Positions 5,374 through 27,696 of a stretch of 31,149 nt of DNA are shown here, in pieces; position 1 is the stretch's first letter; each line of letters begins with the position of its first letter. A model generated the notes under the pieces. The model ran no database searches. It was not told where the DNA came from and was given only the letters and a program-made list of their open reading frames with translations. The DNA comes from a virus. The position numbers and the translations under genes are program-made. Location of the stretch: positions 1 through 31,149 of the IMG/VR virus record IMGVR_UViG_3300032931_000009; one strand, written 5' to 3'.

Positions 5374-6352
5374 AAAAAGAATTGCATACAAACCTTTTGA
5401 ATACCCTGAATACTACACAGAAGGTTGGCTTAAACAAGCTCAGGCGTTTTGGTTACATACAGAGATTCCCATGTCATCCGATGTAAAGGATTGGAATGAG
5501 AATCTAACAGATGATGAGAAGCACGTGGTAGGTAATATCCTACTTGGCTTTGCTCAAACAGAATGTGCTGTGTCTGACTATTGGACAGGCATGGTGACTG
5601 ATTGGTTTCCTAAGTATGAAATCATTCAGATGGCTATGTTGTTTGGTGCTCAGGAGACTGTTCACGCAACGGCTTACTCTTACTTGAACGATACCCTTGG
5701 TCTTGATGACTACGAAGGGTTCATGCACGAGCCTGCTATTGCTGGGCGTATTGATGCGTTGACATCTGTACCACACCATTACAACTATAAGATTCTATGC
5801 ACCAGTGCACCGGCTCGCAGAGATGTGGCTCGATCACTTGCAATCTTTTCAGCGTTCACCGAAGGTGTAGCATTGTACAGCTCATTTGCTGTGCTATACT
5901 CTTTCCAATTGAACAACAAGCTAAAAGGTGTTGGTCAACAGATGAAGTGGTCTGTAAGGGATGAGGCTCTACACTCTAAGATGGGATGTCAATTGTTCCG
6001 TCACATGTGCGAGGAGTTTCCTGAACTAAAGACAGATGCAAAGGATGCTATTTTAGAGGCGGCTAAGTTAACTCTTGATATGGAGATGAAATTCATCGAC
6101 AAGATTTTTGAGAGAGGAGACTTAGAGAATCTAAAGGCTTACGACCTTAAACATTTTATGCACAAACGCATCAATGATAAGTTAGTGGAGCTAGGCTATG
6201 ATGCCATCTTTGCTTATGACCCTGGGGCTGCCGAACAATTAGATTGGTTCTACCAATTAACAGCAGGTGTTGAGCATTCAGATTTCTTTGCAACAAGACC
6301 AACAGCATACAGTAAAGCCAATGAAGGCGAAGACTGGAGTGACGTATTTTAA
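5360..6352 (+). CDS. nrdB: Class I ribonucleotide reductase, small (beta) subunit
   Basis: Holds the di-metal cofactor that generates the radical used by the alpha subunit to make deoxyribonucleotides. Ligand positions line up with the family: E68 (first ligand, in GFAQTECAVSD), E99 and H102 in QETVHATAY, E168 in FTEGVALYSSF, E202 and H205 in RDEALHSKMG. The radical tyrosine is Y106, seven residues after E99, as Y122 is after E115 in E. coli. The first ligand is Glu where E. coli and mouse have Asp. The C-terminus ends in an acidic/aromatic tail (EDWSDVF) as used for docking to alpha. 330 aa is normal. It precedes the alpha subunit with two small genes between. Confidence 0.95.
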   Translation: MSLFEKRIAYKPFEYPEYYTEGWLKQAQAFWLHTEIPMSSDVKDWNENLTDDEKHVVGNILLGFAQTECAVSDYWTGMVTDWFPKYEIIQMAMLFGAQETVHATAYSYLNDTLGLDDYEGFMHEPAIAGRIDALTSVPHHYNYKILCTSAPARRDVARSLAIFSAFTEGVALYSSFAVLYSFQLNNKLKGVGQQMKWSVRDEALHSKMGCQLFRHMCEEFPELKTDAKDAILEAAKLTLDMEMKFIDKIFERGDLENLKAYDLKHFMHKRINDKLVELGYDAIFAYDPGAAEQLDWFYQLTAGVEHSDFFATRPTAYSKANEGEDWSDVF

Positions 6353-6375
6353 CTTTAACTAAATTAAATAAAACG

Positions 6376-6654
6376 ATGATCAAACACCATCCAATCCATG
6401 AACAAGACCTAATCGACTTGGGTTTTGAGAAAACCGTTGTCTCTAAGCATGAGTCAGGGCACGAAGAAGATTTCTATTACTATATATATGTAATATCTAA
6501 AAACACCACACTAATAACTAACGCTGATGATGAGGCGAAACTTAGCACGTGGCACGTTTATATACTTGATGATGACTTCTATTTCGATGAGATAGAGCCT
6601 CTAACAAACTTTTTAACATCATTTAGCTATGCCAAATTCCCCAATAAAGATTGA
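6376..6654 (+). CDS. Small hypothetical protein between nrdB and nrdA
   Basis: A 92-aa acidic, aromatic-rich protein (FYYYIYVISKN, WHVYILDDDFYFDEIEPL) with predicted beta strands. Proteins with a run of Tyr, then a W-x-V-x-I strand, occur widely as unknowns in Bacteroidota phages and prophages. Its ATG lies 23 bases after nrdB, preceded by the leader AACTTTAACTAAA (6351-6363), also found before the primase-helicase gene. It overlaps the 45-aa gene downstream by 26 bases. It is not a glutaredoxin or thioredoxin: no CxxC is present. Function is unknown. Confidence 0.7.
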   Translation: MIKHHPIHEQDLIDLGFEKTVVSKHESGHEEDFYYYIYVISKNTTLITNADDEAKLSTWHVYILDDDFYFDEIEPLTNFLTSFSYAKFPNKD

Positions 6655-6766
6655 GATAGTGTTGCCTGATAAGTCAACCGCTTCAATAGATGCCAGTAGC
6701 TCAGATAGTGCTGTGCAAATGATAGAATTTTTACTTGAACTAATTAAATCTTTAGAAAATGATTAA
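6629..6766 (+). CDS. 45-aa small protein linking to nrdA
   Basis: A short open frame read from ATG 6629, starting MPNSPIKIEIVLPDKSTA and ending in a leucine-rich helix MIEFLLELIKSLEND. It overlaps the preceding gene by 26 bases and the nrdA start by 8 bases (ATGATTAA), filling what would otherwise be a 104-base gap in a genome with almost no gaps. The strand-then-amphipathic-helix pattern looks like a real small fold rather than chance. No family is recognised. It may be needed for translational coupling of nrdA. Confidence 0.55.
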   Translation: MPNSPIKIEIVLPDKSTASIDASSSDSAVQMIEFLLELIKSLEND

Positions 6767-8537
6767 TCACGCAGAGAACCTAGGATGGGAACTAGATGTA
6801 GACTTCCCAGCTTGGGGTAACTCACCCGAATACGTAAAGACAATATCAGGAGGATATTTATTAAAAGGCGAGAAGCCTATCAACGCGTACCATAGAGTAG
6901 CAAACTCTGTGGCCGACAGACTTGGTAAGCCAGAAATGGCAGACAAGTTCTTCCAATATATTTGGAATGGATGGTTAAACTTAGCCACACCTGTGCTATC
7001 TAATACAGGCACCGATCGTGGTCTACCCATCTCTTGCTATGGCATTGATATCGCTGACTCAGTGTTTGATATTGGTACTAAGAACTTAGAGATGATGCTA
7101 CTTGCCAAGCATGGGGGTGGTGTAGGAGTAGGCTTTAATCGCATACGCCCTGCAGGATCAAAGATAGCTAAGAACGGAACATCAGATGGTGTTATCCCAT
7201 TCACTAAAATCTTTGACTCCACTATTCTTGCTACATCACAAGGCAATGTTCGTCGTGGTGCGGCATCTAGTAACATTAACATTGAGCACAAAGACTTTGA
7301 GGATTGGTTGGAGATTCGTGAGCCTAAGGGTGATGTGAACCGCCAATGTATGAACCTACACCAATGTGCTGTGGTAGGTGATAAGTTTATGCGTAAGCTA
7401 GAAGATGGTGATGTAGATGCTCGACGCAAGTGGGGTAAGTTACTACAGAAGCGTAAGGCTACTGGTGAGCCATACATTTTATTTAAAGGTAATGTCAATA
7501 AGCAAAACCCTGAGGCATACAAGAAGAATAGTTTGAAAGTCTACATGACCAATATCTGCTCTGAGATTGTATTGCACACGGATGAGAACCATAGCTTTGT
7601 TTGTTGCCTGTCATCTGTCAACTTAGCTAGGTACGACGAGTGGAAGGACACAGACTTAATCTATATCGCTACTTGGTTCTTAGATGGCGTGCTTGAAGAG
7701 TTTATTCAGAAGGCCAAGAACATGAAAGGCTTTGAAAATGTTGTTCGCTTTGCTGAGAAAGGTCGTGCTATTGGACTAGGTGTTCTAGGGTGGCATACAT
7801 ATTTACAACAGAAAGGTATCCCATTCGAAGGATTGCTTGCTCAGTTTGAGACACGTAAGATATTCTCTCAGATTAAGATTGAGTCTGAGCGTGCATCTCG
7901 TGACATGGCTGAGGAATATGGTGAGCCATTATGGTGCGTGGAGACAGGCATGCGTAACACCCACCTTCGTGCCATTGCACCAACGGTGTCTAACTCTAAG
8001 TTAAGTGGTAACGTGTCAGCTGGTGTTGAGCCATGGGCGGCCAATGTATTTACAGACCAATCAGCAAAGGGTACATTCATTCGCAAGAACAAAGAACTTG
8101 AGAAGGTGCTAAAGAAGATTGGCATTAATACTAAAGAAACTTGGGACCAAATCCTAGCTGATGGTGGGTCAATTCAAGATATTCCTGAACTTGATAATTG
8201 GTATTACCATGACGGTAAGGTTAAGCATACTAATGATGTTTATGATTACCCAGATAGCATGCTAACTCCAGTTAAAGATGTATTTAAAACATTCAAGGAG
8301 ATAAACCAATTAGAATTAATTAAGCAAGCAGGTATTCGTCAGCAGTACATTGACCAATCTGTTTCATTGAACCTCGCATTCCCCTCTCAGGCTACGCCTA
8401 AGTGGATAAACCAGGTGCACATGGAGGCATGGAGACAACGCATTAAGACATTGTACTACATGCGTACAGAATCTGTATTGCGTGCTGACATTGCTACACG
8501 AGCAACTGATCCAGACTGCGTTTCATGTGACGGATAA
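6759..8537 (+). CDS. nrdA: Class I ribonucleotide reductase, large (alpha) subunit
   Basis: Catalytic subunit that reduces ribonucleotides for phage DNA synthesis. Active-site residues are present: C93 in LPISCYGI, N265-C267-E269 in TNICSEI, C282 in VCCLSSVNL (with C93 the redox pair), the radical-transfer tyrosines in LYYMRTES near 568, and a C-terminal C587-x-x-C590 for re-reduction. At 592 aa it is shorter than E. coli NrdA (761). Recognisable sequence starts at the 10-helix barrel region (YLLKGEKPINAYHRVANSVA), so the N-terminal ATP-cone that mediates dATP shut-off is absent. Loss of that brake is common in phage enzymes. It overlaps the 45-aa gene by 8 bases and ends the first forward transcription block before a terminator. 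Confidence 0.95.
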   Translation: MINHAENLGWELDVDFPAWGNSPEYVKTISGGYLLKGEKPINAYHRVANSVADRLGKPEMADKFFQYIWNGWLNLATPVLSNTGTDRGLPISCYGIDIADSVFDIGTKNLEMMLLAKHGGGVGVGFNRIRPAGSKIAKNGTSDGVIPFTKIFDSTILATSQGNVRRGAASSNINIEHKDFEDWLEIREPKGDVNRQCMNLHQCAVVGDKFMRKLEDGDVDARRKWGKLLQKRKATGEPYILFKGNVNKQNPEAYKKNSLKVYMTNICSEIVLHTDENHSFVCCLSSVNLARYDEWKDTDLIYIATWFLDGVLEEFIQKAKNMKGFENVVRFAEKGRAIGLGVLGWHTYLQQKGIPFEGLLAQFETRKIFSQIKIESERASRDMAEEYGEPLWCVETGMRNTHLRAIAPTVSNSKLSGNVSAGVEPWAANVFTDQSAKGTFIRKNKELEKVLKKIGINTKETWDQILADGGSIQDIPELDNWYYHDGKVKHTNDVYDYPDSMLTPVKDVFKTFKEINQLELIKQAGIRQQYIDQSVSLNLAFPSQATPKWINQVHMEAWRQRIKTLYYMRTESVLRADIATRATDPDCVSCDG

Positions 8538-10422: not shown

Positions 10423-13400
10423 TTACTTAGCGAAGTATAATCTTTCCTTCTTTCTTTGAGCTGCTCTAGCCTTAGCATTCTTAATATATTGCTTTGCTAA
10501 TTTATTAGCTATCTCACCTGTCTGTCTAAGACCTATACCAAACACACTAGTTGTTTGACCTTTAACCCATGGGGTTAAATTATCTTTCTCTTCTTGAGTT
10601 AACTTAAGTATAGTTCCATCTTTATCCTTATACACATCATTTAACAGCATGGTATTAGCTGTGACATTAGAGATGTTCCCTGCAGGTACACCTGCTAATC
10701 CTCCTACAAGATTAAGATATGCTTCAGCATCACTATTAGAATCTTTCTCGTAAAATAAGAATTTATTTTCAGGAACTGCCCTTTTTGTTTTAGCAAAGTA
10801 AAGTTTCTCTTCAGGCAATTTTTCTTTAATTTCTTTTCCTCCTAATAAATAATTGGTAGCATAAATTAAAAGCTCATCACCTGCTCCTGGTATTGGAGAC
10901 ATCATATCTGTGTATCCTCTAGTTATAGCACTATTAGTTTTATTATCTCTTCTTTTCTTTTTGTCTTCTTCCGATTCTTTAACACCATATAGTTCAAATA
11001 ACTTATCATATACATAATTCATAATTGAACCAGATATTTGTGAATAGATATATGCTTCACCAGAAATTCTTAATAAATCTTTTCCGGCTTCTGCTTTATC
11101 AGATAAACTACTATTTAAACTTCCAATAATAAGTAGGTCTTTATTTATTTGAGCTTTCATATTAATGCTAAAACTAGCAAAAGCAAAAATAGTATTACGC
11201 AATAATTTATTAGAAGCTTTTTTACTAGCAAACATTTCACCTAATGTTTCTTGAACACTTGAGTTTAAAGTTTGATTTACTTTTGATTCAGCAAAGTCTG
11301 CTGCCTCTTTGTTTAATGGCTTACTCCAATCTATATCATTGGTAGGTAATCCCATCTTTCTTAATTTATACACATAATAAGAAGCCCATGCACCTCTAGC
11401 TGCAATAACATCTGGCTTAGATAATAAGAATTTTAATTGTGCATCATTAAGGCCCCTTAAAGCTTCAAAGAATTTTTTAGCACCACTTTCTGCCGCAGAT
11501 GTTAAAATTGTATCTGATGCACCTAAAGATGCTACAGAGTCTAGTCCACGTAATGAAATACCATACCCTGAATTATTTATGGCTTTATTAAAGCTTGGGC
11601 TCGTTACATACCCAAATCCTTTAGCAAAACTAGGTACCTGACCAACAAGTAAGCTAGGTAACTCCTCCACTGTATTAATTATTGTTCCTATGAAAACTGG
11701 AATAGTTTGTTGAATAGGAGCAAGTGCAGATGTTAATGCAGCTGATCTAGCTACACTAGCAAAATAAGTCATGGTATCGTTAGCACTTTTCCATTCTGCT
11801 GCAGAATCATCATACTCTCTATCTCTCAATAGATTAACCATAGTATAAATTTTTTCTTTAGCAAATGTTCTATTTTCTACATCCGGGAACATCTCATTAA
11901 ATCCTTTTGAGTTAATGAATCCCATTAAATGTTGAACAGATGATGCTGTTAATAAATCAAGCATAGTTTTACGCAACTTCGTAGCATTATTAATATCAAA
12001 ATCATAATCTTTTACATAAGTTGTTTCTTTTATATCACCTTCTCCTTGGCTAGGAAGTTTCTTTTTATTCTGTCTATCCATCATTGTGGATACAGGAGAC
12101 TGATTGATAAAATTAAATGCCATCTTATATGTATTCATAGCATTTAAATCTTGGGTTGTTTCATAAGGAACAATCTTCTCCCACCCTTCCGGTGTATAGA
12201 AGTCTTCTTTATTAATCTTCTTATTATAAATGGTAGATGCTATGGTAGCAAATAAGTCATAAGACTCAGCCCATTTACCAACCCAAAATTCAGCACCCTG
12301 CTTATTTACTGGATCAACTAATTTACCAACCTCTTCTGCATTTTTAGCGTCTTTGATTTTTTCGTAAACTTGCTCGTACAATTTAGCCTTTTCAATAAGT
12401 CTTTTATCTCCACTCTTTTTATTTGTTTCAATGGTTTGTTTTAATAAATCCATTTTATCATTAAAATCGTCTTGTACCTCTTTGGGTGTTCCGATAACGG
12501 ATCTTAATAAATCAGCATAGATACCTCTTTCATATACATTCAGTGCATTCATAAACTTCTTGCCATTGGCTTTCATTTTGCCAAAACTTGCAACATAGTC
12601 CTTGGATATATTGTTGACCATTTTGATAGCCTTAGAGTGCATATTAATTATGTCATACAATTTGGATGCAGTCATAAATGTTCTAGCCTTATCATCGCTC
12701 TTAAAGTAACCAGCAAGAAGTGTTTCTATTGGATCAAGTCTTTTATTAATAAATTTTCTAATAGCAGGAATTCTTCCTAAAACAGTTAATATAGCCCGCT
12801 TAAAGTTTCCTTTACCGCCTAATCTCTTTCCAGTTATATTTCCTTCTAATGTGCCAGCATAAGAATTATAAATAGCTCCCATCTTATTAACATACTCGTT
12901 AACGATTAAGTTATTGACAGCATCAAGTGATTGGTATAATTGGTCTGTAGATAATTTATCTAAGTCCATCTCCAAGAAATTCTTGACAAGTTGTTTAACT
13001 TCAGGGCTAAATGTAACTGTCTCACCAGTTAATGGGTGTTTACCAGATAACATTTTAGCTGCTACTTCAGCTGCATTCTTAAATTCTAATTTAATTAACT
13101 CACGAGTGGCTTCAATAACTTCTTCAGCTCCTTCAACAGGTTCTCCCTTTTCAATAGCCGCAATAATTTCTTTGATTTCTTTTAAAGAAATGTCTGCACT
13201 AATTACACCAAGATCAACTAAGTTATTATAATTATCAAGAAGCATGCCTTTCATTGCCTCCATTTGACGTTCAGACTCTCTGTTAATATACTCAAGTCTT
13301 TCGTTAATGTCAGTTGCTTGACGGAAGTTGGCACCACCTTTAGGGGTTACTCTAGGCGTCTTGATAGCATCATAGAACTGTTGAGCATTCTCCATATACT

Positions 13401-16400
13401 CATCAATATCTTCCACCATAGATGGAGAAAGTCTTGCGAACTCAAGTGCTGCTTGTTTAACGTCATCAATAAGATTTTTGTTACCAGCAAGTCTTCTTAT
13501 TTGTTCTCTAATGGCAACTGCTTTAGACAATGTCTCTGCATATATTGCGTTCTTAATTATCTTCTCAGCTTTGTCAAAGAATCTAGCTCTAGTAATTGGG
13601 TTAGTCATATCTTCCTTTAACCCACTTAATAAAGAATTCATTTGAGCGGAAGTCAATATGCCTTTGGCACCTAGTCTCTTGACAGCGTCAATCATTGAGT
13701 TTACCGCTTCTTTAGCACTAACTGCACCACCTTCTGCTGACTCTTCTCTAGCACCTAACTTTTCTTTTAAAACCTCCATCTCATCTACTAACTCTTGAGT
13801 AGACTCAATACCTAACACCTGTTGTGCACTTGGTGCAGCAGGTCTTGGAACGCCAGCTTTCTTATTGATCTCATCAGTAATGGCTTGACGCTCTTGCTCA
13901 CTCATGGTCTTATACCTCTTTAATCTCTTAAGGGCTTTTACGCCTTCTACAGCAATTAAATCAGTAGTCATTCCTTCTTTCAATGCCTTAACCATTGAGC
14001 TTAAGATAGAAGCAGGAAGCATTACTTTCTTTTCTTGTTTTGCTTTTTCTTCTGCTGCTTTCTTTTTGTTCTCAGCTTTGTTAAGTCGATCACTAAGGCT
14101 GTTAGCAATACGAGTGGCTCTAGCCTCAGTCATAGGAATAATACCTATGATATCTTGAGGGGTCAATTCTTTTTCACTCTCACGCCATTTTGCAACAAAA
14201 TCCTTGATGCGTTGGTTGGTAGCTTTAAAACGCTGACCTTCTAATACAGACTTAACAACATCTAACAAATAATTATCATTAACTTCTGATTCAGATAACA
14301 TTGCATCATAAATATCACGCATTTTATCATTAAGCTCAATATCAATTTCAGAATCTACAATTCCATTGTAAATATCAAGAAGCCATTCTTTAAATTGATC
14401 AAATATTTCCTTTAATGCATTGCTTGGAGCTTTGCCGTCTGATAAATATTTTTCAAATCCACGAGCAAATTTCTCGCTAGTTTCTCTATTCCATTCTTTT
14501 TGTCCAGTCCAACTTAATATATTTGCTTTTTCTTTGTCTGTCAAATAATTTTCATACACGTGAGCAAGCTCATGTAAAGGCGTAGATACATTTGGATTAG
14601 ATAACGCATAAATAATAGCCTTTCCATCTTTACCAATTTGCATAGCACCTTGTACTCCTCCTGCAGATTCTTGGAATAAACCATTTACTTGCGGAACCCT
14701 TATCATGCGAATCCCGTCATTGTATTTTTCAGCATATGCGATGGCTTCTTCTTTTGAATCAAATTCAAAATCATCCATGTATTCTGGGTCAATAACAAAA
14801 CCGCTTTTCATGTAAAAATTAACAAGGTCTCTTATACCTAACTTATCCGTCCAATCACCGAAAGGTTGAGCAAATAATGTTAATTCAACACCATTTTTAT
14901 CTGCTATACTAGCAATATCTTTCATTACTTGAGTAGCAACCCCTTTACCTTTATCAATTGAGATAAGAGTTTGTAATTCTAGTTCATTTTCTTTTTTATT
15001 AAATGTTGAAAATTGAAGTACAGCACCATTGCCATAATTTAATTTATCAGGAAATAACATATTCCACTCCAATGATCTAAGTTTGCTTAATTCATTTAAG
15101 AATTTTTCAAGTGTTGGGTTCTTAGACCATTTGTTTTTCTCTTGTTCAGCTGGTTTTTCTGCAGAAGGATTTTCTGGTACAGGTGCCTCTTTAGCTAATT
15201 TATCAACTTGTTCCTTTTGCTGTTTTTCTTTTTTTACTATTTCTTCTTTAGCTTTTGGATTTTTAAGTTTTTCAATTCTTCTTCTATACTTATTGTTCTC
15301 ACTTTTAAGTTTAGCAATTTGCTCCTTAAATGTTTTTATCCAATCTTTAGATGTATCTACTTCATTTTTATATTCATCTTTTAATTCTTGAATAGCTTCT
15401 TTTTTATCAGAAGATGACATTGAAGATGCTTTTACTTTCTCAACTTCTTGATCTAAACGCTCCTTAGCTTCTTTGATATTTTCTAGTGACCCAGCGATAT
15501 CATTTATTTCTAATTCTTCAATTGCTTGATCATTCCAAGAGATATCATCTTCTAAACTTTCTACAGTATCCTTTCTTTGATACAAAAGAGTATTACCATT
15601 TTCATCAATGACTGGTCGGCCAGGTTGAACAGCTACATTAAACTGAGAAATATCTCCTTTCTGAAAATCTATTGACTTATATACCTGTTCTTTTGTTTTA
15701 CCAGAACGCTTGGCAATAGTACCAACAACTCTATCTATAGCAATAGCAGATGCAAGTGCTTGAACATTATTTAATCCAAATACCTTCTTGTTAACCTTGA
15801 ACATACTCCAAACACCTGTAACAGGAACGCCTGATTTTTTAGCAGCTTGTTCAACTTCTGGAGTTGGCTTATCACCTAATTCATCTAATTGACCTTCTTC
15901 AGTAGGTTTTACCTCTTCAGTTTTTGTTTCTTGTGTAGGTGCTACTTCTTCTAATGCTGCTATTTCTGCATCATATTTCTCATTAATTCTATTTTCTTGT
16001 TTAGAAGGAGCTACTTCAATTTCTTCAATTTTAGTAGGTTCAGTAATATAATTTTCAACTGGCACAGAACCATCATATACTTCTAATGTACCAGTTCTTT
16101 TATTGTCTTCATTTGCTGAATCTAATCTTTTTTTGCCATTTTTTAAAGTATGAACTAAAAATCTACGACCTTCACCATCTTCATATACTTCTGTTTTTAC
16201 AATTAAATTATTAGCATATTGATCAAGCTCCTCCTTTCTTCTTCTCTCTATTTCTTCCCTTTGACTTTCTTGGGTAGGGACTTGAGGTTCTGCTTGGGGT
16301 TCTCCTTCCGCCATTTGGACGCGACCTCCGGCTTCTGGCTGTACAGGTACTTCACTTGTTGTTTGCTCTTGAACGGCATTTTGTGGTAGTTTAGATAGTT

Positions 16401-19131
16401 CTTGGTTGTTTTTATCTATTAAAGCCTGCTTCTCTTTTATTTTTTCAATAACGGCTGTAACTAGATTCGGGTCTTTCCCTACAATTGATTTGGACATGTT
16501 GTCCATTTCTGCTTGAATCTTATTGTTTGCAGTAATTAACTCAAACGCTTTGCGTTGACTAGCAACAGGAATATCTGTTGGTATTTGAGCCATGATGCTC
16601 TTGGCTTTTTCTAATGCTTTGACCTCAACATCTGCTTGTTCTTTTGTGATTTTACCAGATGCTAAGTTAAGGGCAATATTAGCTTTTTGTAATTTAGCAT
16701 ACTCAGGATCATTGATCAATGAGCTCATAGCTATATAATCATCATCCGTAACAGATTTGCCCTCAAATACAGTTTTAATGCCAACCATTGGGCCACCTAA
16801 AATTAAGGCTCCTACGGCCCCAACTTTCGCATCCTGTGCAACTTGATCCCAATACTCTTTTGACTCCATAGAGGCTACCTTAAATGCCTCCATGCCCATC
16901 AATTTATTAGAGAATCTCTTCCATTCTTTCTCAGCAATACCTTGCTCTGATTCTGTCTCAGCCTCACCAAGTGCTCCACCTGTAAGTCTTGTTCCTATTT
17001 TACCAATCTTAGTTGCCGCAACCTTTTTTACTCCTTTAGCTATTCCTGTTGCAGCAAGTTTTTCACCCGCCTCAACAATTGCTTTTCTAATAACATCCAT
17101 TGTACTATTCTCTGGAATGCTTTGTGCTACTTTACCAAGTAACTTTACAATTGGGCCTTTGCCTCCTTTTAAAACAGCATTTAATCCAGCCTCTTCTAAA
17201 AAACCAGTTGCTATAGCAATAGGCACCGCTACAAAATCTTTCTCAGATTCTGTCATGTACGGCATATCTTTATTGGTTTCCATCTCTTTACGAGTAGCAC
17301 CAATACTTTGCATAATCATCATTGGCAATCCACCAACCATTGCAGGAGCACTGTAAAAAAGACCACCTAGGGCAGCAGGAATAATACCACTCTTTTCCAT
17401 TTCAGTAGCATACTCTTCTGTAGTAGATTTATCTTTCATGCTTTCTAGTGCACCAATATGCCTAGCCTGCATTTCTTTAGTTGCTTGTCTACGATACATA
17501 TCACCACCTGCAGCTAATAACCATGGCTTTTTTTCTAACTCATCGCTTTTAATACCAAACAAATCTAAAGTCTGAGCACCTAATGTTTTCCACAAACCAA
17601 GTTGGTCATCAAGACCACCTGACATTGCCTCAAGACCACTAATAGCTTTGTTCCATAACCATCCACCCCAGTTACCTTCTTCAGCTTTTCTTTTATAATT
17701 CTCTAAAGCCTTCTTACGTAATTGGAACTGATCGACATCTACCGACTCAGCATTCTTACGTAAAGAAACTTCTTGAGCTTGTAATTGTTGTTGTGTTTTT
17801 AATAAAGTTTGTTGCATTGCCGGCAAAGATGGGTCAGCTGGGTTAGCCTTAGCCATTGCCTCGAAGTTTGTTGCATCTCTTTCAAAAGCAACTCTTTGTT
17901 GTTCAAAAGATTTAATATCTGTAGCAATCTTTTTAGATTTCTGCAATACGTCTTTTGACAAGAAGTTAATATCTTCTTTTACATTATAGAACTCAGGTTT
18001 AGTTACATCATACTGATCGTTTGATGGCAACGTAACCTCAGGCTGCTTAACAACTTCTTTCTTAACCTCAACTGTTTTGTATTTCTGAGAACCACCTTCT
18101 ACAACTTTATTGCCAAGTAACTTATTATAGATACTCATGACACCTTTTAGGTATCCACCATAAGTAGTTTTATTACCATACTCGCGGCCAGGAACTTGTC
18201 TTAAAGCAGACTTATTACCCCTTGCAGCTTGTTCGGCTAATGCAGGAGCATACCATGCTCCAGGAGCATGTACCCCTAATCCTTGAAATTGATCATAATA
18301 GCGACCAGCTACATCTCTTTCTAAGTTAGGGTCTTTATCAAAAGTCTTTTTAAAGTTTTCAAACGTACCATATTCTTGTTTGTATTCATCTGTTTGATCA
18401 TAAATACCCTTAAGAGTTCCTGTAACAAACTGATATGTACCCGATGCACTAGCACGACCTGCCTTACCTCTCATCTTTGTACGCATACCAACACGGTTCT
18501 CTCCTGGTTGAGCACCAGATTCGTGTAATGCAATAGCATCAAGCATTGTATCTCTGTCAATCTTTTGCTTAGGATTTAAAGCAGATGTTTTACTTGGGAT
18601 TGGTATTTTCTTGTATGTAGTAACAACCTCTGTTTCAGCAGGTATTACATTCATCTTAGGAGCACGTAATAGCTCTCCACCTGTACTTGATACACCGCCT
18701 GAGAAATCAGGGGCAGCTATAGGCTTAGGAGCCTTAAGTAATTCTTTAACTGTGGCTTTTTTCTCAGGATATCCTTCGAAGTAAGCCTTACTAGGAGCTC
18801 TTAATAACTCTCCTTCAGTACCTACTAGAGGTGTCTCAATTGGCTTTTCTTGTGTAGAAGAAGCCGAAGGCGTAGGTGCTACCTCTTTCTTTGTAACCAA
18901 TGAAGTAGGTTCCTGAACTTGTCTTGAAGGTAACTCCAAAGTCTTTTTTTTTTCAGCAACTGGTGCTGAAATAGTTCCTGAGAACTCTGACGGAGACGGG
19001 AAATCAAATGATTTCGAGCCTACTTTTTTATCCTTAGTGCTAACTGTTGAACTTTTTTTGGTACTAGTCGGCACACCTTTCTTCGATGTAACACCTGAAG
19101 GAGATGGGAAATCGTATTGTTCTTGATCCAT
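10423..19131 (-). CDS. Giant polyvalent virion protein: transglycosylase-like, GNAT-like and HExxH metallopeptidase domains
   Basis: At 2902 aa this is by far the largest protein in the window. Residues about 1-190 are low-complexity, with repeated motifs FPSPS and (G/K)ELL(R/K)AP. About 190-340 is a lysozyme-like/lytic transglycosylase fold (ALHESG with likely catalytic E204; SGTYQFV at 230-236). Hydrophobic stretches occur near 580-610, 768-788 and 2457-2488. About 1195-1295 is predicted coiled coil. About 1340-1450 resembles a GNAT fold (DKGKGVATQVM around 1395, FYMKSGF). HELAH at 1520-1524, with a following SEKFARGFEKYL and APS...WLLDIYNGI, matches the metallopeptidase of phage polyvalent proteins. 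The rest is long helices. Last in the structural operon, it is probably packaged and injected, like T7 gp16 or crAss-like cargo proteins. Individual activities are inferred. Confidence 0.85.
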   Translation of the reverse strand: MDQEQYDFPSPSGVTSKKGVPTSTKKSSTVSTKDKKVGSKSFDFPSPSEFSGTISAPVAEKKKTLELPSRQVQEPTSLVTKKEVAPTPSASSTQEKPIETPLVGTEGELLRAPSKAYFEGYPEKKATVKELLKAPKPIAAPDFSGGVSSTGGELLRAPKMNVIPAETEVVTTYKKIPIPSKTSALNPKQKIDRDTMLDAIALHESGAQPGENRVGMRTKMRGKAGRASASGTYQFVTGTLKGIYDQTDEYKQEYGTFENFKKTFDKDPNLERDVAGRYYDQFQGLGVHAPGAWYAPALAEQAARGNKSALRQVPGREYGNKTTYGGYLKGVMSIYNKLLGNKVVEGGSQKYKTVEVKKEVVKQPEVTLPSNDQYDVTKPEFYNVKEDINFLSKDVLQKSKKIATDIKSFEQQRVAFERDATNFEAMAKANPADPSLPAMQQTLLKTQQQLQAQEVSLRKNAESVDVDQFQLRKKALENYKRKAEEGNWGGWLWNKAISGLEAMSGGLDDQLGLWKTLGAQTLDLFGIKSDELEKKPWLLAAGGDMYRRQATKEMQARHIGALESMKDKSTTEEYATEMEKSGIIPAALGGLFYSAPAMVGGLPMMIMQSIGATRKEMETNKDMPYMTESEKDFVAVPIAIATGFLEEAGLNAVLKGGKGPIVKLLGKVAQSIPENSTMDVIRKAIVEAGEKLAATGIAKGVKKVAATKIGKIGTRLTGGALGEAETESEQGIAEKEWKRFSNKLMGMEAFKVASMESKEYWDQVAQDAKVGAVGALILGGPMVGIKTVFEGKSVTDDDYIAMSSLINDPEYAKLQKANIALNLASGKITKEQADVEVKALEKAKSIMAQIPTDIPVASQRKAFELITANNKIQAEMDNMSKSIVGKDPNLVTAVIEKIKEKQALIDKNNQELSKLPQNAVQEQTTSEVPVQPEAGGRVQMAEGEPQAEPQVPTQESQREEIERRRKEELDQYANNLIVKTEVYEDGEGRRFLVHTLKNGKKRLDSANEDNKRTGTLEVYDGSVPVENYITEPTKIEEIEVAPSKQENRINEKYDAEIAALEEVAPTQETKTEEVKPTEEGQLDELGDKPTPEVEQAAKKSGVPVTGVWSMFKVNKKVFGLNNVQALASAIAIDRVVGTIAKRSGKTKEQVYKSIDFQKGDISQFNVAVQPGRPVIDENGNTLLYQRKDTVESLEDDISWNDQAIEELEINDIAGSLENIKEAKERLDQEVEKVKASSMSSSDKKEAIQELKDEYKNEVDTSKDWIKTFKEQIAKLKSENNKYRRRIEKLKNPKAKEEIVKKEKQQKEQVDKLAKEAPVPENPSAEKPAEQEKNKWSKNPTLEKFLNELSKLRSLEWNMLFPDKLNYGNGAVLQFSTFNKKENELELQTLISIDKGKGVATQVMKDIASIADKNGVELTLFAQPFGDWTDKLGIRDLVNFYMKSGFVIDPEYMDDFEFDSKEEAIAYAEKYNDGIRMIRVPQVNGLFQESAGGVQGAMQIGKDGKAIIYALSNPNVSTPLHELAHVYENYLTDKEKANILSWTGQKEWNRETSEKFARGFEKYLSDGKAPSNALKEIFDQFKEWLLDIYNGIVDSEIDIELNDKMRDIYDAMLSESEVNDNYLLDVVKSVLEGQRFKATNQRIKDFVAKWRESEKELTPQDIIGIIPMTEARATRIANSLSDRLNKAENKKKAAEEKAKQEKKVMLPASILSSMVKALKEGMTTDLIAVEGVKALKRLKRYKTMSEQERQAITDEINKKAGVPRPAAPSAQQVLGIESTQELVDEMEVLKEKLGAREESAEGGAVSAKEAVNSMIDAVKRLGAKGILTSAQMNSLLSGLKEDMTNPITRARFFDKAEKIIKNAIYAETLSKAVAIREQIRRLAGNKNLIDDVKQAALEFARLSPSMVEDIDEYMENAQQFYDAIKTPRVTPKGGANFRQATDINERLEYINRESERQMEAMKGMLLDNYNNLVDLGVISADISLKEIKEIIAAIEKGEPVEGAEEVIEATRELIKLEFKNAAEVAAKMLSGKHPLTGETVTFSPEVKQLVKNFLEMDLDKLSTDQLYQSLDAVNNLIVNEYVNKMGAIYNSYAGTLEGNITGKRLGGKGNFKRAILTVLGRIPAIRKFINKRLDPIETLLAGYFKSDDKARTFMTASKLYDIINMHSKAIKMVNNISKDYVASFGKMKANGKKFMNALNVYERGIYADLLRSVIGTPKEVQDDFNDKMDLLKQTIETNKKSGDKRLIEKAKLYEQVYEKIKDAKNAEEVGKLVDPVNKQGAEFWVGKWAESYDLFATIASTIYNKKINKEDFYTPEGWEKIVPYETTQDLNAMNTYKMAFNFINQSPVSTMMDRQNKKKLPSQGEGDIKETTYVKDYDFDINNATKLRKTMLDLLTASSVQHLMGFINSKGFNEMFPDVENRTFAKEKIYTMVNLLRDREYDDSAAEWKSANDTMTYFASVARSAALTSALAPIQQTIPVFIGTIINTVEELPSLLVGQVPSFAKGFGYVTSPSFNKAINNSGYGISLRGLDSVASLGASDTILTSAAESGAKKFFEALRGLNDAQLKFLLSKPDVIAARGAWASYYVYKLRKMGLPTNDIDWSKPLNKEAADFAESKVNQTLNSSVQETLGEMFASKKASNKLLRNTIFAFASFSINMKAQINKDLLIIGSLNSSLSDKAEAGKDLLRISGEAYIYSQISGSIMNYVYDKLFELYGVKESEEDKKKRRDNKTNSAITRGYTDMMSPIPGAGDELLIYATNYLLGGKEIKEKLPEEKLYFAKTKRAVPENKFLFYEKDSNSDAEAYLNLVGGLAGVPAGNISNVTANTMLLNDVYKDKDGTILKLTQEEKDNLTPWVKGQTTSVFGIGLRQTGEIANKLAKQYIKNAKARAAQRKKERLYFAK

Positions 19132-21488: not shown

Positions 21489-21896
21489 TTATAGATGTTT
21501 TACTAGTTCTGTGCAGTTTTTTTCAGTTTCAATATATCCTGCATTTTTATATTTATTTACCAAGTTTTTATTATGAACCGACACTAACATAAACCTATAT
21601 CCAGATTCTTTGCAAGCTAAACTAATAGTTTCAATTAAAAACTCAATTGCTTTGTTTCTATCTTTTTCTCTGTAGTTAATATTAGATACAATAAATTCGC
21701 AAAATGCTATTGATGAATTAGTAAAGTATGCATATCCTGCACAAATATCTATATCACCTTTTGATATCATAAAACCACCTGTTGCATTGTTGGGTAAAGC
21801 ATCCCTACTTGGAATAACACCTCCCCAATCATTCCACCATTTAGTTAATATATTATCGTAATCATTTTCATTTAATAATCTAACGGAGAAATCCAT
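21489..21896 (-). CDS. GNAT-fold N-acetyltransferase-like protein
   Basis: A 135-aa protein with the strand and helix order of a GNAT acetyltransferase: VRLLNENDYDNILTKWW at the start (beta1-alpha1), ICAGYAYF and AFCEFIVSN strands, a helix REKDRNKAIEFLIETI where acetyl-CoA normally binds, and the typical end LVSVHNKNLVNKYKNAGY. The usual R/Q-x-x-G-x-G/A loop is degenerate (YREKDRNKA), so cofactor binding is uncertain. Proteins of this kind sit inside structural operons of many phages with unknown targets. Here it lies between the tail protein and the internal virion proteins; a second GNAT-like domain is in the giant protein. Confidence 0.75.
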   Translation of the reverse strand: MDFSVRLLNENDYDNILTKWWNDWGGVIPSRDALPNNATGGFMISKGDIDICAGYAYFTNSSIAFCEFIVSNINYREKDRNKAIEFLIETISLACKESGYRFMLVSVHNKNLVNKYKNAGYIETEKNCTELVKHL

Positions 21897-21913: not shown

Positions 21914-22642
21914 TTATGGGTAGGATTTAAATACATCTGAAGATACCATAAACATTTCTGTATAAGTTGTATCGCTATTGGTAAACTCTACGCTTAGATA
22001 AGTCCCTCTTGTAGGTGTTGATTCAGCAACTGGATTTTTCTCATAAAGAATAAAACTACCATTTGTTGGTGCCGTTCCTGTTACAGTGACTGTCACTGTT
22101 GTTCCAGAGTGTGCCGTAATTGGGCCAATAAAAGTAAGAACTCCTGTATTAACCCAATAAAGATTATCTCCTGTGCTAATTATATCGCCAATATTAAATG
22201 CAAATGTAAGTATACCTGCTGCATAAGTTGTAACATTGCCTATACCTTGAACAGATGTCATAGATATATTATTAGCAGACAATTCAGTTCTTCTAATATA
22301 ACCATACCAAGTACCCTCCTTTAAGTCATACCAAGTTTTATCAATATACCCTTCTCCTTGGTCAGATAAAATATCTGTTTCCCAAGCAGTAGTTGAATTA
22401 GTGGCTATGGTTTTAAATGATTTTGTTTGAGCAGGGTCATTATTAAATATGGTAGTTATTTTAGATGGGTATAAAACGCCATAATAACTATTTCTAACAG
22501 GATTTGAGTTATGTTTATATAAATTGCCATTACTAAATGAATACATATAGTTATTCATAGACACCATCCACTCAGGACGGTAGTCGTGGTAGGATGTCCA
22601 TCCACTTAATCTAGGAGAATATGTTAATGTATAGTATGACAT
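21914..22642 (-). CDS. Tail structural protein, likely detached C-terminal part of the tail (muzzle/stabilization-type) protein
   Basis: A 242-aa protein from ATG 22642; an in-frame TTG nine bases earlier is possible. It starts with LTYSPRLSGWTSYHDYRPEWM, followed by MYSFSNGNLYKHN and KSFKTIATNSTTAWETDI. From memory, this succession (spK-gWtSf, sf-nG-lY-Hn, then k-fkti-..-s-aW) occurs near the C-terminus of the about 1000-1400-aa tail stabilization proteins of crAss-like and related phages. A beta-rich Gly/Thr segment (about 130-205; FNIGDIISTGDNLYWVN) interrupts it. It lies 26 bases after the 1376-aa tail gene, which lacks that ending, so the two probably assemble together in the tail. The homology needs an alignment to confirm. 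Confidence 0.65.
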   Translation of the reverse strand: MSYYTLTYSPRLSGWTSYHDYRPEWMVSMNNYMYSFSNGNLYKHNSNPVRNSYYGVLYPSKITTIFNNDPAQTKSFKTIATNSTTAWETDILSDQGEGYIDKTWYDLKEGTWYGYIRRTELSANNISMTSVQGIGNVTTYAAGILTFAFNIGDIISTGDNLYWVNTGVLTFIGPITAHSGTTVTVTVTGTAPTNGSFILYEKNPVAESTPTRGTYLSVEFTNSDTTYTEMFMVSSDVFKSYP

Positions 22643-22668
22643 ATATTGCAAATTTACTTATTTAATTA

Positions 22669-25600
22669 TTATGGACAACTATAAAACGATGTTATTTGAA
22701 TTGAGCCATTATATCCCACAGGAGGTGTCAATTGCGACAATGTAGCCCCTGTGTATGTATAGAAAACTGGAGTCATTGATGGTAGTACATATCTTCTACC
22801 AACTGCATCTGGAACAATTGTGGTGAATGCGTATCCTGTACCAGGAGAACATTCAGCTAACTCATAATAAGTTATTGGTGTTGGACAACCAGTTAGGCCA
22901 GTACTAGTAATTGCAAGCAATGTGCCGCCTGGATTGTAATTAATAATACCATCTACAATATAAGTATCACCACCTGATGTAACTCTGTTATTTAATTCAA
23001 ATGTGTTTTCTGCATAAGCCTGTGAATTGGCTGATGATCCATCAGAACATTTATATAAAATATACCATTCATAAGTGGGTGCACTAGGGCATCCAGTTAA
23101 TCCTGTTGCAGTAATTGCAAGCAATGTACCACCTGGATTGTAATTAATAATACCATCTATAACATAAGTATCTGCACCTGATGTAACTCTATCATTAATT
23201 TCAAATGTGTTAGCTGGGTATGCTATAGAATTTGCTTCAGACCCGTCAGAACATTTATGCATTACATAATATTCATCTAATGGCGGGCTTGTAACTTGTG
23301 TTACAGATATAATTATATCTTCAGTACATCCTGATACAGTAATATTTAAATTTCTTGTAGCTCCTAAATTCTCAAGGACATCTACGTAAATAAGCCCATT
23401 GTTTGATCCGTAATAATCACTAACAGTTAACCAATCATTTGCAGGAATTGAAACTACCCAATCTGTATTAGATTGAATATAGAATGATTTTTTTTGTACT
23501 GTACCATCAAATGACAATGTTGATGGAGTTACAGATATTGAGCATGTTGTAATTTTTCTATCATTGTCAATAGATAAAGCATAATGCTCAAAATAAGGAT
23601 CCATCATACCAAGTTTTACAACATTAGTATCGAGGTTTGCCTTAAACCAGTTTTTCATGCCTTGAGATGATATCTCAAATAACCCATCTTGCTGTAATGC
23701 CATAACAGCACCACGTCTCGCATCTGTAAAGTATAAATTATTTCCCCATCTAGTAAAACTTTCTGGGTTTAAACTAATGCCATATTCTCCCTCATAAGAT
23801 ATTTGAGTTCCTAATACTTCAGGTACTGAAGCAATTGCTCCACCACCAGTAGAATCACTTAATAAATTTTTACCATAAAGAACTTTAGATACTTTATTTT
23901 CTTGAAATACAACTAAATCAGTATCACGAGAAAAAAGTTTCTGAATAGACCCAAAGAATCTGTCTAAGTATTTAAAGTTTGCTAAAGATAAGTTAAACTC
24001 ATTCAACCTGTTAATGGCTGATGTTTGAGTATAAATACCGCTATACGTTAATGCCTGAACGACTGTTTGCTCTTCATACCCTTCAATTGTTGCATTTGCT
24101 CTTGGGCTAAATTGCATTGTTCCGGAGTTAAAGTCATCTCTAATTCTAAAACTTTCTACACCGTTTCCAAATGAGAATGCATTAAAATCACCATTAAAAT
24201 TAAACGTATTTAAATCTATTATTGCCGGGTCACCCAATGCAACATTTTGATTTTGAATATTTCCATAGTGATTACCATTGATAATAGGATACGTTTTTGA
24301 AAGCTCATAATATACATCTTGGTTAGTATCAGTTGGAACTGTTTCAAAAAGTACTGGTGCCTCCGATTGTTGTAAAGTGAATCTTGTATCAACAGAAGGT
24401 AATCCAGAACCAGTACCCTGACTTGAATAAAAATACATATATACTGGATATTCCAGTGTTGTTGTTGATATAGTAGATCCTTGAGATATACTATCTGGAT
24501 TAGAAGTAGCTTCAATTCCTCTTCTAAAACAAACTTCTAGCGGACCAATACTATCACCATCGGATCCAAATTGAACCCATTTTTGGTAAGCATAATCCTC
24601 AATAAACCATTCTTCAATGTTTACATATTCTCTTGATGATATAAAAGTTTGAGGTATCCATACATCAGCATTATTTGTTTCTTTATATTTAAACAATAAA
24701 ACAGCCCCTGCTTTAATTGGTCTATCTTCATCATTGCTGACAGATACACTCCATTCGTTAAACGTAAAATATGTCGCAGGATTTGTTGGTTGAAATTGCT
24801 CAGTACTACCTCCAAATATATTATTACCAGCTAAACTCCTACAATTAACAACCCAATAGTCATTTAATGTATGTGCTGTGTTGCTTGTAAACTTAATCGT
24901 ACAAGACTCACCAGAGTATGTTAGTGATTGGTCTACGCCAGGAGTTATTGCTACATTTTCGGCAACTAAAAATTTATACGTACCATTATACGTTGCGTAA
25001 TACTTAAATGTATTTATCGGAGCATCACTATCTATTTGTATGTAAAATCTGATATCATTAGTTCCTGAATACAAATTAGAGTTACTCGTAATCATATCGT
25101 TTAACCCTAACCCATAAAAAATAGCATTTTCTGCAACAGTGAATCTGTTGATTACTGGTTGATATAATGTATCTAAAGCACTACCATTTGCATCTGTATA
25201 ATATGTTATTGGAGGAAGTACTGATGTATCAATTTTTACTCTAAAATAAACACCCGCTGGCTGTGTTATATTAGGCGTATTTAAAAAATCTACTCCTTGA
25301 CTTACAATATCCAATATCTTATATTGAACATTAGTATTTAATGTAGCTGATTTTAAATATAAATATGTGCCAACGGAAACTTTATTAACATCGGCTTGAT
25401 TAATTAAAAACCACTTGAATTCTCCATCTTGAAAATATAATAAAGGGAATACATTGTAATAATTCTGTTTATCCTGCTTAATCATAAAACGATAATGCGT
25501 AGCAAAAGCCGGTGGCTGATATGTACCATCAATTGTAACACGGATGTTATTAGCATCAATGGCATTAGCAGCAGGTATGTAAATAGTATTAGTATTTTCA

Positions 25601-26799
25601 GTTGGAGTAATTACAGTTGTTGTTCTTCCATAATCATCTAAATAAGAAATACCAATTTCATAATCCCTATTACTTTTAAATGTAGGCGTAGGCGTTCCAC
25701 TAACTATTAAATCCGATTGTAATGATAATGTGAATGCTGGATTAATAGGCTCTTTGTTTTCTTTTAATAAATTAAAAAATTGTGTATAATTTCCGTATAC
25801 CAATCTACTGCCAATTAATTCTTGAGACTTAGCCTTTATTGGCACATTATCAAAAAGCCTATTTACTTGGTCTTGAGGTAATATTGTAAATACTTTATTA
25901 TTCTTAAACTGATAAGAGTAATCTGTATTATCTGAATAATCGATTAGGCTTTTAACTAAATTGTCAATTATATATGTATTAATACTTTGAGTATCCCTAA
26001 ATATTAATTGAATTTCTTTTACATTATTTGATCCAGAGTTAAATGTTATATCTGCCGTGTTAAAATTATTAACCATTGATATATTCTCAGATACCCCGTA
26101 ATCATAAGCAAATTCTTTTGGAAAGAAAGCTACAGGAGAAAATGGAGACAAAGCACTATACTCGTTATCTAAATACTTATATCTGTATGAGAAATAAAGA
26201 AATTTATTTTCTAAGTTATTAGCTTCTCCTTCTGAATATAAGTTAATTGTTGGTGCAGATAATGGAGGAGCTAAGATAACATTGATGTCAGCCTCAGTAA
26301 ATCCATCTACTGCATAATTCTTTGAACGATCAATATTGATCCTACGTGGAGGATTTAAGTTGTCAGTCCACAAGAGAAGTCCATTGATATAATTTATACC
26401 TGTAACAAAGAACGCCTTGTCAAAGCCAAGCAATGAAGGCGTAGTGGGTGTTAACTTGGTAGCTCTAAGTACTGGAGTTAACGCATCCGTTGTTTCATTA
26501 TATTCATAAATAGCATCCAACGTATCAGATGCTACTAACCAATAAATTGAATTATTTGTTTCGTACGCAAGTGATCCAATACACATTGCATTGACTAACT
26601 CTAAATCATCTCCCTTTAAAATATTACCTAAGTAGTTTTGAGCTACTCCATTACGTGAACCATCTTCTGGTACAAACGCCCCATCAGAATCCCCCACAAT
26701 AATATTATATGCCTCACGATATGTACCGTCAGGTAAAAAATGAGGGTCAAGGTCTTTATTCATGACCCCTGAAAGGAAATTTCTTTGAAGTTCTACCAT
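22669..26799 (-). CDS. Large tail protein (stabilization/muzzle-type) with BACON-like domain and C-terminal tandem repeats
   Basis: A 1376-aa structural protein. The N-terminus (RNFLSGVMNKDLDPHFLPDG, then EAYNIIVG) and the FVTGINYINGLLLWTDNLNPPR segment match large tail proteins I recall from crAss-like and other Bacteroidota podoviruses, where they form the end of the short tail. The middle is beta-rich, ending with NNLYFTDARRGAVMAL and MMDPYFEHYALSI. About 1082-1171 is BACON-like: SVTPSTLSFDG, SNTDWVVSI, NDWLTVS, then NITVSG and a closing VTQ. About 1176-1310 is two near-identical Cys-containing repeats, then a diverged third to the end (1311-1376). BACON domains are thought to bind glycans, so this end may contact the host surface. 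It abuts the 298-aa gene upstream without a gap. Confidence 0.8.
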   Translation of the reverse strand: MVELQRNFLSGVMNKDLDPHFLPDGTYREAYNIIVGDSDGAFVPEDGSRNGVAQNYLGNILKGDDLELVNAMCIGSLAYETNNSIYWLVASDTLDAIYEYNETTDALTPVLRATKLTPTTPSLLGFDKAFFVTGINYINGLLLWTDNLNPPRRINIDRSKNYAVDGFTEADINVILAPPLSAPTINLYSEGEANNLENKFLYFSYRYKYLDNEYSALSPFSPVAFFPKEFAYDYGVSENISMVNNFNTADITFNSGSNNVKEIQLIFRDTQSINTYIIDNLVKSLIDYSDNTDYSYQFKNNKVFTILPQDQVNRLFDNVPIKAKSQELIGSRLVYGNYTQFFNLLKENKEPINPAFTLSLQSDLIVSGTPTPTFKSNRDYEIGISYLDDYGRTTTVITPTENTNTIYIPAANAIDANNIRVTIDGTYQPPAFATHYRFMIKQDKQNYYNVFPLLYFQDGEFKWFLINQADVNKVSVGTYLYLKSATLNTNVQYKILDIVSQGVDFLNTPNITQPAGVYFRVKIDTSVLPPITYYTDANGSALDTLYQPVINRFTVAENAIFYGLGLNDMITSNSNLYSGTNDIRFYIQIDSDAPINTFKYYATYNGTYKFLVAENVAITPGVDQSLTYSGESCTIKFTSNTAHTLNDYWVVNCRSLAGNNIFGGSTEQFQPTNPATYFTFNEWSVSVSNDEDRPIKAGAVLLFKYKETNNADVWIPQTFISSREYVNIEEWFIEDYAYQKWVQFGSDGDSIGPLEVCFRRGIEATSNPDSISQGSTISTTTLEYPVYMYFYSSQGTGSGLPSVDTRFTLQQSEAPVLFETVPTDTNQDVYYELSKTYPIINGNHYGNIQNQNVALGDPAIIDLNTFNFNGDFNAFSFGNGVESFRIRDDFNSGTMQFSPRANATIEGYEEQTVVQALTYSGIYTQTSAINRLNEFNLSLANFKYLDRFFGSIQKLFSRDTDLVVFQENKVSKVLYGKNLLSDSTGGGAIASVPEVLGTQISYEGEYGISLNPESFTRWGNNLYFTDARRGAVMALQQDGLFEISSQGMKNWFKANLDTNVVKLGMMDPYFEHYALSIDNDRKITTCSISVTPSTLSFDGTVQKKSFYIQSNTDWVVSIPANDWLTVSDYYGSNNGLIYVDVLENLGATRNLNITVSGCTEDIIISVTQVTSPPLDEYYVMHKCSDGSEANSIAYPANTFEINDRVTSGADTYVIDGIINYNPGGTLLAITATGLTGCPSAPTYEWYILYKCSDGSSANSQAYAENTFELNNRVTSGGDTYIVDGIINYNPGGTLLAITSTGLTGCPTPITYYELAECSPGTGYAFTTIVPDAVGRRYVLPSMTPVFYTYTGATLSQLTPPVGYNGSIQITSFYSCP
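22873..23274 (-). repeat. Tandem repeat inside the tail gene (two units of about 200 bp)
   Basis: Unit one is 23071-23274 (68 codons) and unit two 22873-23070 (66 codons). Both encode a YKCSDGS/HKCSDGS start, ENTFEL-NRVTSG or ANTFEI-DRVTSG, then DGIINYNPGGTLLAIT and TGLTGCP. A DNA block around ATTGCAAGCAATGT and the following GGATTGTAATTAATAATACC is identical in both (about 22910-22952 and 23116-23158), pointing to a fairly recent duplication. A third, much diverged unit may follow at 22669-22872 (AECSPGTGY ... FYSCP). Confidence 0.9.
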
Positions 26800-27696
26800 T
26801 TACTTAATCCACTTAGATTGGCCTCTCATGTTCATTAACAAGCGACCTGGGTGTAAATTACTTAATCTAATCTTTGCGTTTCTCCAATTGGAAACCTTTT
26901 CTTTACGAGCTCTATTAATAACATACTCAGGTTGATTTGCCTTATTATTTAAAATAGCCCACTTGATATATGAGTAGATATATTCCTCTGCTAACTTCGC
27001 AATAGTAATCTGAGCGTCGTCACCTGGATACATACCATCGGAAATATATTCTAATACTACTGACCGATTAAACATGCCTGAACTAAAATTAATGACACCT
27101 GCGACCTTATCTACTCTAAAGGTAGGGTTCACATTAGCTGTCTCTGTATTAAGCCCGTACACAGCTCCGTAGCCCTGTGAGAAGTACCACAACCCATCTA
27201 CACACCATCCATACTGATTGTTGTATGGGCACAATTGGTAGTTTATACCATCAATGCGAGATAAGTCTAGTTTAGATGTTCCTTGTATAGCATTTCCATC
27301 ATTATCAAATAAAATTTGATACTGGTCATCTTGCAAGAATTCGATAGCTGTATTTGCTTGAGGGTTCTCCGACATAGGGTACAAGATGCCCCCATGAAAT
27401 AAAGATACACGAACATAGTTCACGTAATCAGAAGGTAACACGAATTTTAAATCATGACCAACTTCTAGCTGTAATGCATTAGTCTGACGATTTCCATCGT
27501 AGTTTAATTCTTGCACAGCTCTTTTAGCATGAAACAAGATTTTATACCTATTGATATTATTCAATAGTTCACCATCGTCCGTATACATTAAGATGAAGTT
27601 GTTAACAACATCGCCTAATGTTACATTTTGATACGTGCCCCAATTGGCATCCGTGGGTGTTAACCCATCATTAGTGTAATATTTTTCCTGATTCAT
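26800..27696 (-). CDS. Head-tail connector / tail tubular (ring) protein
   Basis: A 298-aa protein directly upstream of the large tail protein, with no gap. It has a helical start (VVNNFILMYTDDGELL, FHAKRAVQELNYDG), then LKFVLPSDYVNYVRVSLFHGG and LYPMSEN, a beta-rich centre, and a basic helical end (YVINRARKEKVSNWRNAKIRLS). The helix-then-LPSDYVNY layout is characteristic of the gp4/gp11-type adaptor proteins that link portal to tail in Bacteroidota podoviruses. In crAss-like virions two such ring proteins stack below the portal. The neighbouring 229-aa product is a candidate second ring. Assigned by pattern memory and gene order; no structure was checked. Confidence 0.65.
   Translation of the reverse strand: MNQEKYYTNDGLTPTDANWGTYQNVTLGDVVNNFILMYTDDGELLNNINRYKILFHAKRAVQELNYDGNRQTNALQLEVGHDLKFVLPSDYVNYVRVSLFHGGILYPMSENPQANTAIEFLQDDQYQILFDNDGNAIQGTSKLDLSRIDGINYQLCPYNNQYGWCVDGLWYFSQGYGAVYGLNTETANVNPTFRVDKVAGVINFSSGMFNRSVVLEYISDGMYPGDDAQITIAKLAEEYIYSYIKWAILNNKANQPEYVINRARKEKVSNWRNAKIRLSNLHPGRLLMNMRGQSKWIK

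Follow-up and report, generated by a model that had tools for sequence, protein, structure and literature searches.

Gene content of the locus

The window, meaning the whole stretch of 31,149 nucleotides analysed here, is a 31-kb virus record in which two neighbouring genes on the minus strand, downstream of two ring-type tail genes, encode proteins of 1376 and 242 aa, hereafter the N-chain and the C-chain (Table 1). The gene directly upstream of them would be a ring-type tail gene by its position, and the muzzle likewise stands straight after ring-type tail genes in phi38:1 and the elemo phages. The list of open reading frames begins the C-chain at a TTG, three codons ahead of the ATG that is the start common to relatives. 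The product of the small gene downstream matches phi38:1 gp098 at 22% and its counterpart in MW202828 at 35%, where it is annotated as an acetyltransferase subunit; its relatives adjoin the muzzle in both genomes, and this synteny is kept in split and fused genomes. As the window is a fragment, and NCBI places the related cultured phages in Pervagoviridae, Pachyviridae or Elemovirus, outside Crassvirales, we call it crAss-related only.

Table 1. Positions of the muzzle genes, their predicted parts and their neighbours in the window
Feature	Coordinates	Strand	Details	Evidence
Virion structural gene directly upstream of muzzle	26800..27696	-		phrog_13977; same order in phi38:1
N-chain ORF	22669-26799	-	1376 aa	phrog_14478 (virion structural family), E 1e-199
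Putative muzzle N-chain core	23569..26799	-	residues 1-1077	phrog_14478; phi38:1 gp097; gp44 profiles
Final conserved strand ahead of break, MMDPYFEHYALSI	23569..23607	-	residues 1065-1077	alignments
Cassette BACON domain	23284..23544	-	residues ~1086-1172	3ZMR profile match, Foldseek
Repeat R1	23071..23274	-	204 nt, Cys-containing	sequence comparison of copies
Repeat R2	22867..23070	-	204 nt, Cys-containing, 77% identical to R1	
Last cassette domain	22672..22866	-	ends ...SFYSCP	stop codon 22669-22671
A/T-rich spacer between muzzle genes	22643..22668	-	26 nt	
C-chain ORF	21914-22651	-	from TTG, 245 aa	ORF list start
C-chain gene	21914..22642	-	from ATG at 22642, 242 aa	phrog_18548, E 1e-47
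PF25729 crAss_MUZ_C domain in C-chain	22286..22498	-		Pfam E 5.5e-15, above curated cut-off
Small conserved gene downstream of muzzle	21489..21896	-		phrog_17252

Homology of the two proteins to single-chain muzzles

Cellulophaga phage phi38:1 carries the window's protein and synteny, but as one chain of 1324 aa (gp097; YP_008241478.1) from which the cassette is absent. Residues 1-1047 of gp097 align with residues 1-1052 of the N-chain and residues 1072-1323 with the entire 245-aa protein, at 34-35% identity across both and leaving no space for an insert. The original prediction, that the muzzle lacks its C-terminal section after MMDPYFEHYALSI and that the next gene supplies it, is thus supported by PF25729 and by gp097, which is also the continuous homologue that it had proposed to look for, spanning both proteins and skipping the insert. 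The insert does lie at the break, although it begins at about residue 1078 and not at 1082 as had been proposed.

N-chain profiles matched crAss001 gp44 (7QOK; PMC10172136) at residues 25-159 and 1049-1168, and the C-chain profile matched it at 1198-1292 (E 5e-15), so that the similarity of the 242-aa protein to the C-terminus of single-chain relatives, also foreseen, extends from gp097 to gp44. The N-chain core corresponds to the first ~1190 residues of gp44, and the break maps to gp44 ~1190-1198, where two strands follow one another directly (...NDVYFTY / KDHCLCYSE...). Profiles were required to detect this homology, as searches of solved structures with single sequences returned neither gp44 nor any useful match. 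The likeness covers the N-terminal, post-IG2 and C-terminal regions, PF25729 and the place after ring-type genes; gp44 is, however, a single chain of 1371 aa with a blade hairpin free of any insert, whereas the window has two chains and a cassette. Only 0-6 residues separate the two strands in the single-chain homologues of phi38:1 and loci L127-L131, L193 and L199-L204. At the level of sequence, the reading of the 1376-aa protein up to residue 1077 as a crAss-type tail muzzle, and of the 242-aa protein as its C-terminal part, holds. Where a crAss-type muzzle is a single polypeptide, the window has two ORFs in different frames, the second with a separate start, and we therefore regard its muzzle as a two-chain variant.

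Composition of the cassette

The insert (residues 1078-1376) consists of a BACON domain, two repeats and a last domain, bearing out the tandem repeats and the BACON domain that had been proposed from the window alone. For the latter, three lines of evidence agree: the family profile matches the BACON module of BoGH5A (3ZMR; E 1.1e-8), an AlphaFold model of the first cassette domain superposes on the same module, its closest solved structure at 26% identity (Foldseek E 1e-6, rmsd 1.4 Å over 88 columns), and one relative matches PF13004 at 6e-9. Of 23 members of the domain family, nine match PF19190 and six PF13004, and in a single-sequence Pfam search of the window protein BACON stayed under the cut-off (19.3 vs 25 bits). 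BACON domains also occur in the tail-associated proteins of crAssphage (de Jonge 2019, PMC6949934), but there as tandem arrays, whereas the window has a single copy in the muzzle, followed by unrelated repeats. In Bacteroides ovatus, by contrast, the BACON module of BoGH5A is part of a xyloglucanase and has no phage role.

The window's R1 is 91% identical to that of L014 and 33-46% to those of the other 16 relatives, while the nearest core is that of L009. Within the protein, R1 resembles the R2 type (72%), so replacement or conversion of a repeat is likely. Searches of public phage genomes found no matches to R1-R2.

Architectures among related loci

We sorted 204 loci by profile. The muzzle is split in most of those listed, a proportion that is no census because the loci were gathered via the C-chain, with the best 80 taken per scan; for the same reason, the presence of the C-chain at every locus is not evidence in itself. 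Split genes with a cassette are common to the window's whole genus and beyond, in a large aquatic group of crAss relatives. Among the split loci, N-chain tails range from 11 to ~2000 aa, and the two genes overlap by as much as 52 nt or stand as far as 5.8 kb apart, with extra genes between them. The N-chain of L041, L073, L104 and L133 stops just past a BACON-type domain and separate genes come next, and in L076-L078 and L080 it is the C-chain that has gained a 375-aa N-terminal extension. One locus (L092:5381-9729) is split with neither cassette nor extra gene, its N-chain ending 11 residues past the strand and its two genes sharing a TAATG stop-start overlap.

A plain fused muzzle is found in phi38:1, Calle, Gundel_1, L127-L131, L193 and L199-L204, and single chains are encoded by crAss001 (gp44), cr118_1, phi38:1, Gundel_1 and the elemo phages. 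The elemo proteins carry ~14 aa at the hairpin, and the fused muzzles of the L173 clade have 127-152 aa inserted at the same hairpin.

Three kinds of domain come first at the cut among the matches listed: BACON (37 distinct rows), a domain that we call type A (85, including phi19:3) and the fused insert (eight), with no overlap. Single-linkage clustering joined BACON and type A via shared repeats, and profile iteration on the first 112 residues parted them; hhalign gave the pair a probability of 0.4%, and by sequence the two are unrelated. Cellulophaga phages phi19:3, phi13:2 and phi46:3 (gp120/gp121 and equivalents) have the window's split point, with the cassette on the N-chain and the C-chain as the next gene, but the cassette of phi19:3 (Pachyviridae) opens with a type-A domain where the window has BACON. 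Depositors annotated both muzzle pieces of these three phages as structural, the C-chain by similarity to another phage.

Several observations on individual loci stand apart from this comparison. The C-chain extension of L076 (7870-9744) contains DUF5122 beta-propeller repeats, and the ~2000-aa N-chain tail of L044 (3-7019) has many Cys-rich domains. A gene of ~303-310 aa lies between the muzzle genes in L033 (6264-7193), L031, L034, L037, L043 and L044; that of L033 belongs to phrog_4417, of unknown function, and a second intervening gene in L031 is methyltransferase-like. Most of the intervening genes scanned, including the ~303-310-aa genes tested, had no match in Pfam. Maribacter phage Panino (L002:3501-7414) is joined at the hairpin and yet comprises two CDS, which part just past the equivalent of about window residue 958 and leave the last strand of the N-part on the C-terminal piece; the break is possibly a second split point or a sequencing frameshift. 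The N-chain ORF of L032 (1535-5645) is interrupted near residue 482, where two frames overlap, and an assembly frameshift is the probable cause.

Origin of the split and turnover of modules

In the tree, every split row except phi19:3 falls on one branch (SH-aLRT 98-99), and phi19:3 groups with the fused L131 (SH-aLRT 96-97), although the data do not reject a tree that unites every split row (p-AU 0.20). By these phylogenies, splitting would have arisen once or twice. With crAss001 and cr118_1 both single-chain, we take the single chain as ancestral, in agreement with the original prediction of a single-chain ancestor, an insertion exactly at the break and a distal part that became its own gene; the event is not peculiar to the window but old, and a large clade has it in common. 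The split can occur without the cassette and the cassette position can be filled without a split, given that L092 is split without an insert and the L173 clade is fused with one. Split homologues lacking any domain in between had been named as evidence against the insertion, and L092 is literally such a case; it is nested, however, in the cassette-bearing split clade, making loss of its cassette the simpler reading.

That the split arose more than once, at a hairpin that tolerates breakage, with shared cassette types spread by recombination, is a reading to which we give only slightly less than an even chance. Phage phi19:3 groups with a fused locus and yet has a type-A cassette like that of a distant 84-row clade (E 5e-57), and the L173 clade acquired a different insert without splitting; against this, the branches concerned are long, and the test cited above leaves one clade of all split rows standing.

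Turnover was assessed by Mantel comparison in 18 close relatives, with core residues 801-1077 plus the C-chain as reference. Whereas the crass domain and region 151-522 follow the core (r 0.77), BACON (0.22), R1 (0.14) and R2 (0.31) track its phylogeny poorly, which indicates module turnover in the window's genus; poor tracking is not unique to the cassette, as the N-terminal 150 residues also have r 0.24. Between other relatives, at 80-87% core identity, cassettes measure 298-1318 aa, with up to 1000 aa added onto the shared part. The picture from these sequences is one in which distal modules appear to accrete and exchange and the first domain seems to change rarely, so that the earlier notion of a 'swappable' module applies to the distal modules and repeats.

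Probable assembly of the two chains

By the domain map of gp44 (PMC10172136), in which the IG2 domain ends at residue 1021, the cut lies among the C-terminal propeller blades, in a hairpin that joins two successive strands, and our reading of sequence and predicted strands puts it mid-blade. The N-chain would give most of the muzzle, with homology that ends two strands into a four-stranded propeller blade; the C-chain would take up that blade from its third strand and supply the remaining propeller (the last blade) and the C-terminal domain. Since the hairpin is interrupted between its strands, the N-chain is left with half a blade at its end, and reassembly of the two chains is strongly implied: most likely they complete one blade jointly, and the propeller closes although no peptide bond links them. 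The turn missing between the strands would become the exit point of the cassette, as the C-terminal tail of the N-chain, and a six-fold muzzle would bear six cassettes on the tail tip. With the C-chain restarting alone, a free-ended cassette may gain or lose length, give way to another or turn into separate genes, leaving the muzzle frame intact.

A read-through model of L014, comprising the N-chain end, cassette and C-chain with stops as Ser, was built on an 85-row alignment that includes natural single chains (moderate confidence: mean pLDDT 72.8, pTM 0.46; Foldseek vs 7QOK/7QOL ~700 columns, E 1e-5, high overall rmsd of 14 Å). The strands predicted for it at 196-203 and 208-218, from the N-chain, and at 526-531 and 536-541, from the C-chain, fit a two-chain blade, which favours joint folding of the halves without proving it.

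We consider it likely that the two genes make one crAss-type muzzle as two chains, with a cassette at the break that probably contacts the host surface or keeps the tip at a distance from it. Very improbable, in our view, is that the C-chain left the muzzle after the split and became an independent accessory protein, as might be thought from its separate gene, which lies 5.8 kb from the N-chain gene in one relative, and from the new extension that it bears in L076-L078 and L080, with DUF5122 repeats in L076. The C-chain is among the best conserved parts (mean identity within the genus 86%, vs 88% for core 801-1077), distances in the C-chain and in that core segment are correlated (Mantel r 0.65), and an N-chain without it would miss half a blade plus the next blade. 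Still less credible is that the break is only apparent, with a frameshift, stop read-through, intein or intron joining the pieces. Both ORFs share a frame across a 27-nt spacer in many relatives, and some crAss-like groups are rich in introns and inteins (PMC7886860), but spacers of 25, 26 and 27 nt occur in close relatives with two or three stops between the ORFs, so that the frames differ among them and the second gene has its own start. Together with overlaps of 1-52 nt and whole intervening genes in other loci, these spacers argue against a joined product made by a fixed mechanism. Neither the insert, with its BACON domain and repeats, nor the scanned intervening genes had a splicing domain, and Rfam found nothing in the window; on these grounds, with the stops and the intervening genes, read-through, intein and intron explanations were rejected.

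Possible function of the cassette

Phages of the crAss group dominate the human gut and their relatives are common in water, while how they choose a host and open is poorly known. The muzzle forms the tail tip, where it is likely the gate for ejection, and contact with the host has been proposed for its crass domain (PMC10172136). The same paper describes the crass and IG2 domains, but not the blade hairpin, as variable in length.

In propellers, the loop that links the second strand to the third lies on the face that also bears the loop between blades. The cassette would thus sit on the tail tip, where a host-contacting, receptor-facing role is plausible. Rather unlikely, in our view, is a two-chain muzzle whose cassette serves not to bind the host but as a structural spacer or as a decoration that stabilises the particle. 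A spacer role is possible because the BoGH5A BACON module failed to bind any substrate tested (PMC9853417, citing Larsbrink 2014); carbohydrate binding by BACON is contested (PMC9853417). Poly-threonine linkers between the repeats of L031, L033 and L034 have a stalk-like look, and conserved cysteines sit in BACON and at both ends of each repeat, disulfides being used in the tails of crAss001 (PMC10172136). Fast turnover, unrelated domains at one site and poor agreement with the core are, however, more usual in parts that recognise surfaces than in structural glue.

More tentatively, and with the odds somewhat against it, we suggest that the muzzle of this clade has a true two-chain propeller closed within one blade, whose cut hairpin serves as a general docking port on the tip for N-chain tails, free-standing genes and C-chain extensions with unrelated origins; if so, the phage would renew its cell-contact surface with the gate untouched. 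Earlier work has described the muzzle itself, insertions into its crass and IG2 domains and the occurrence of BACON in tails of phages; we found no split (two-gene) muzzle or hairpin insertion site in the open-access literature, which does not prove their absence. A natural cut and insertion point, with several unrelated inserts and an insert-free two-chain case, marks where the tip tolerates new domains, and the host-contact role becomes directly testable through removal of the cassette in cultured phages.

Elsewhere in the window, a 2902-aa ORF without a Pfam match lies within the late gene block (10423-19131), and both ribonucleotide reductase subunits (Pfam) are encoded on the plus strand at 5360-8537, near primase-like and SNF2-type helicase genes.
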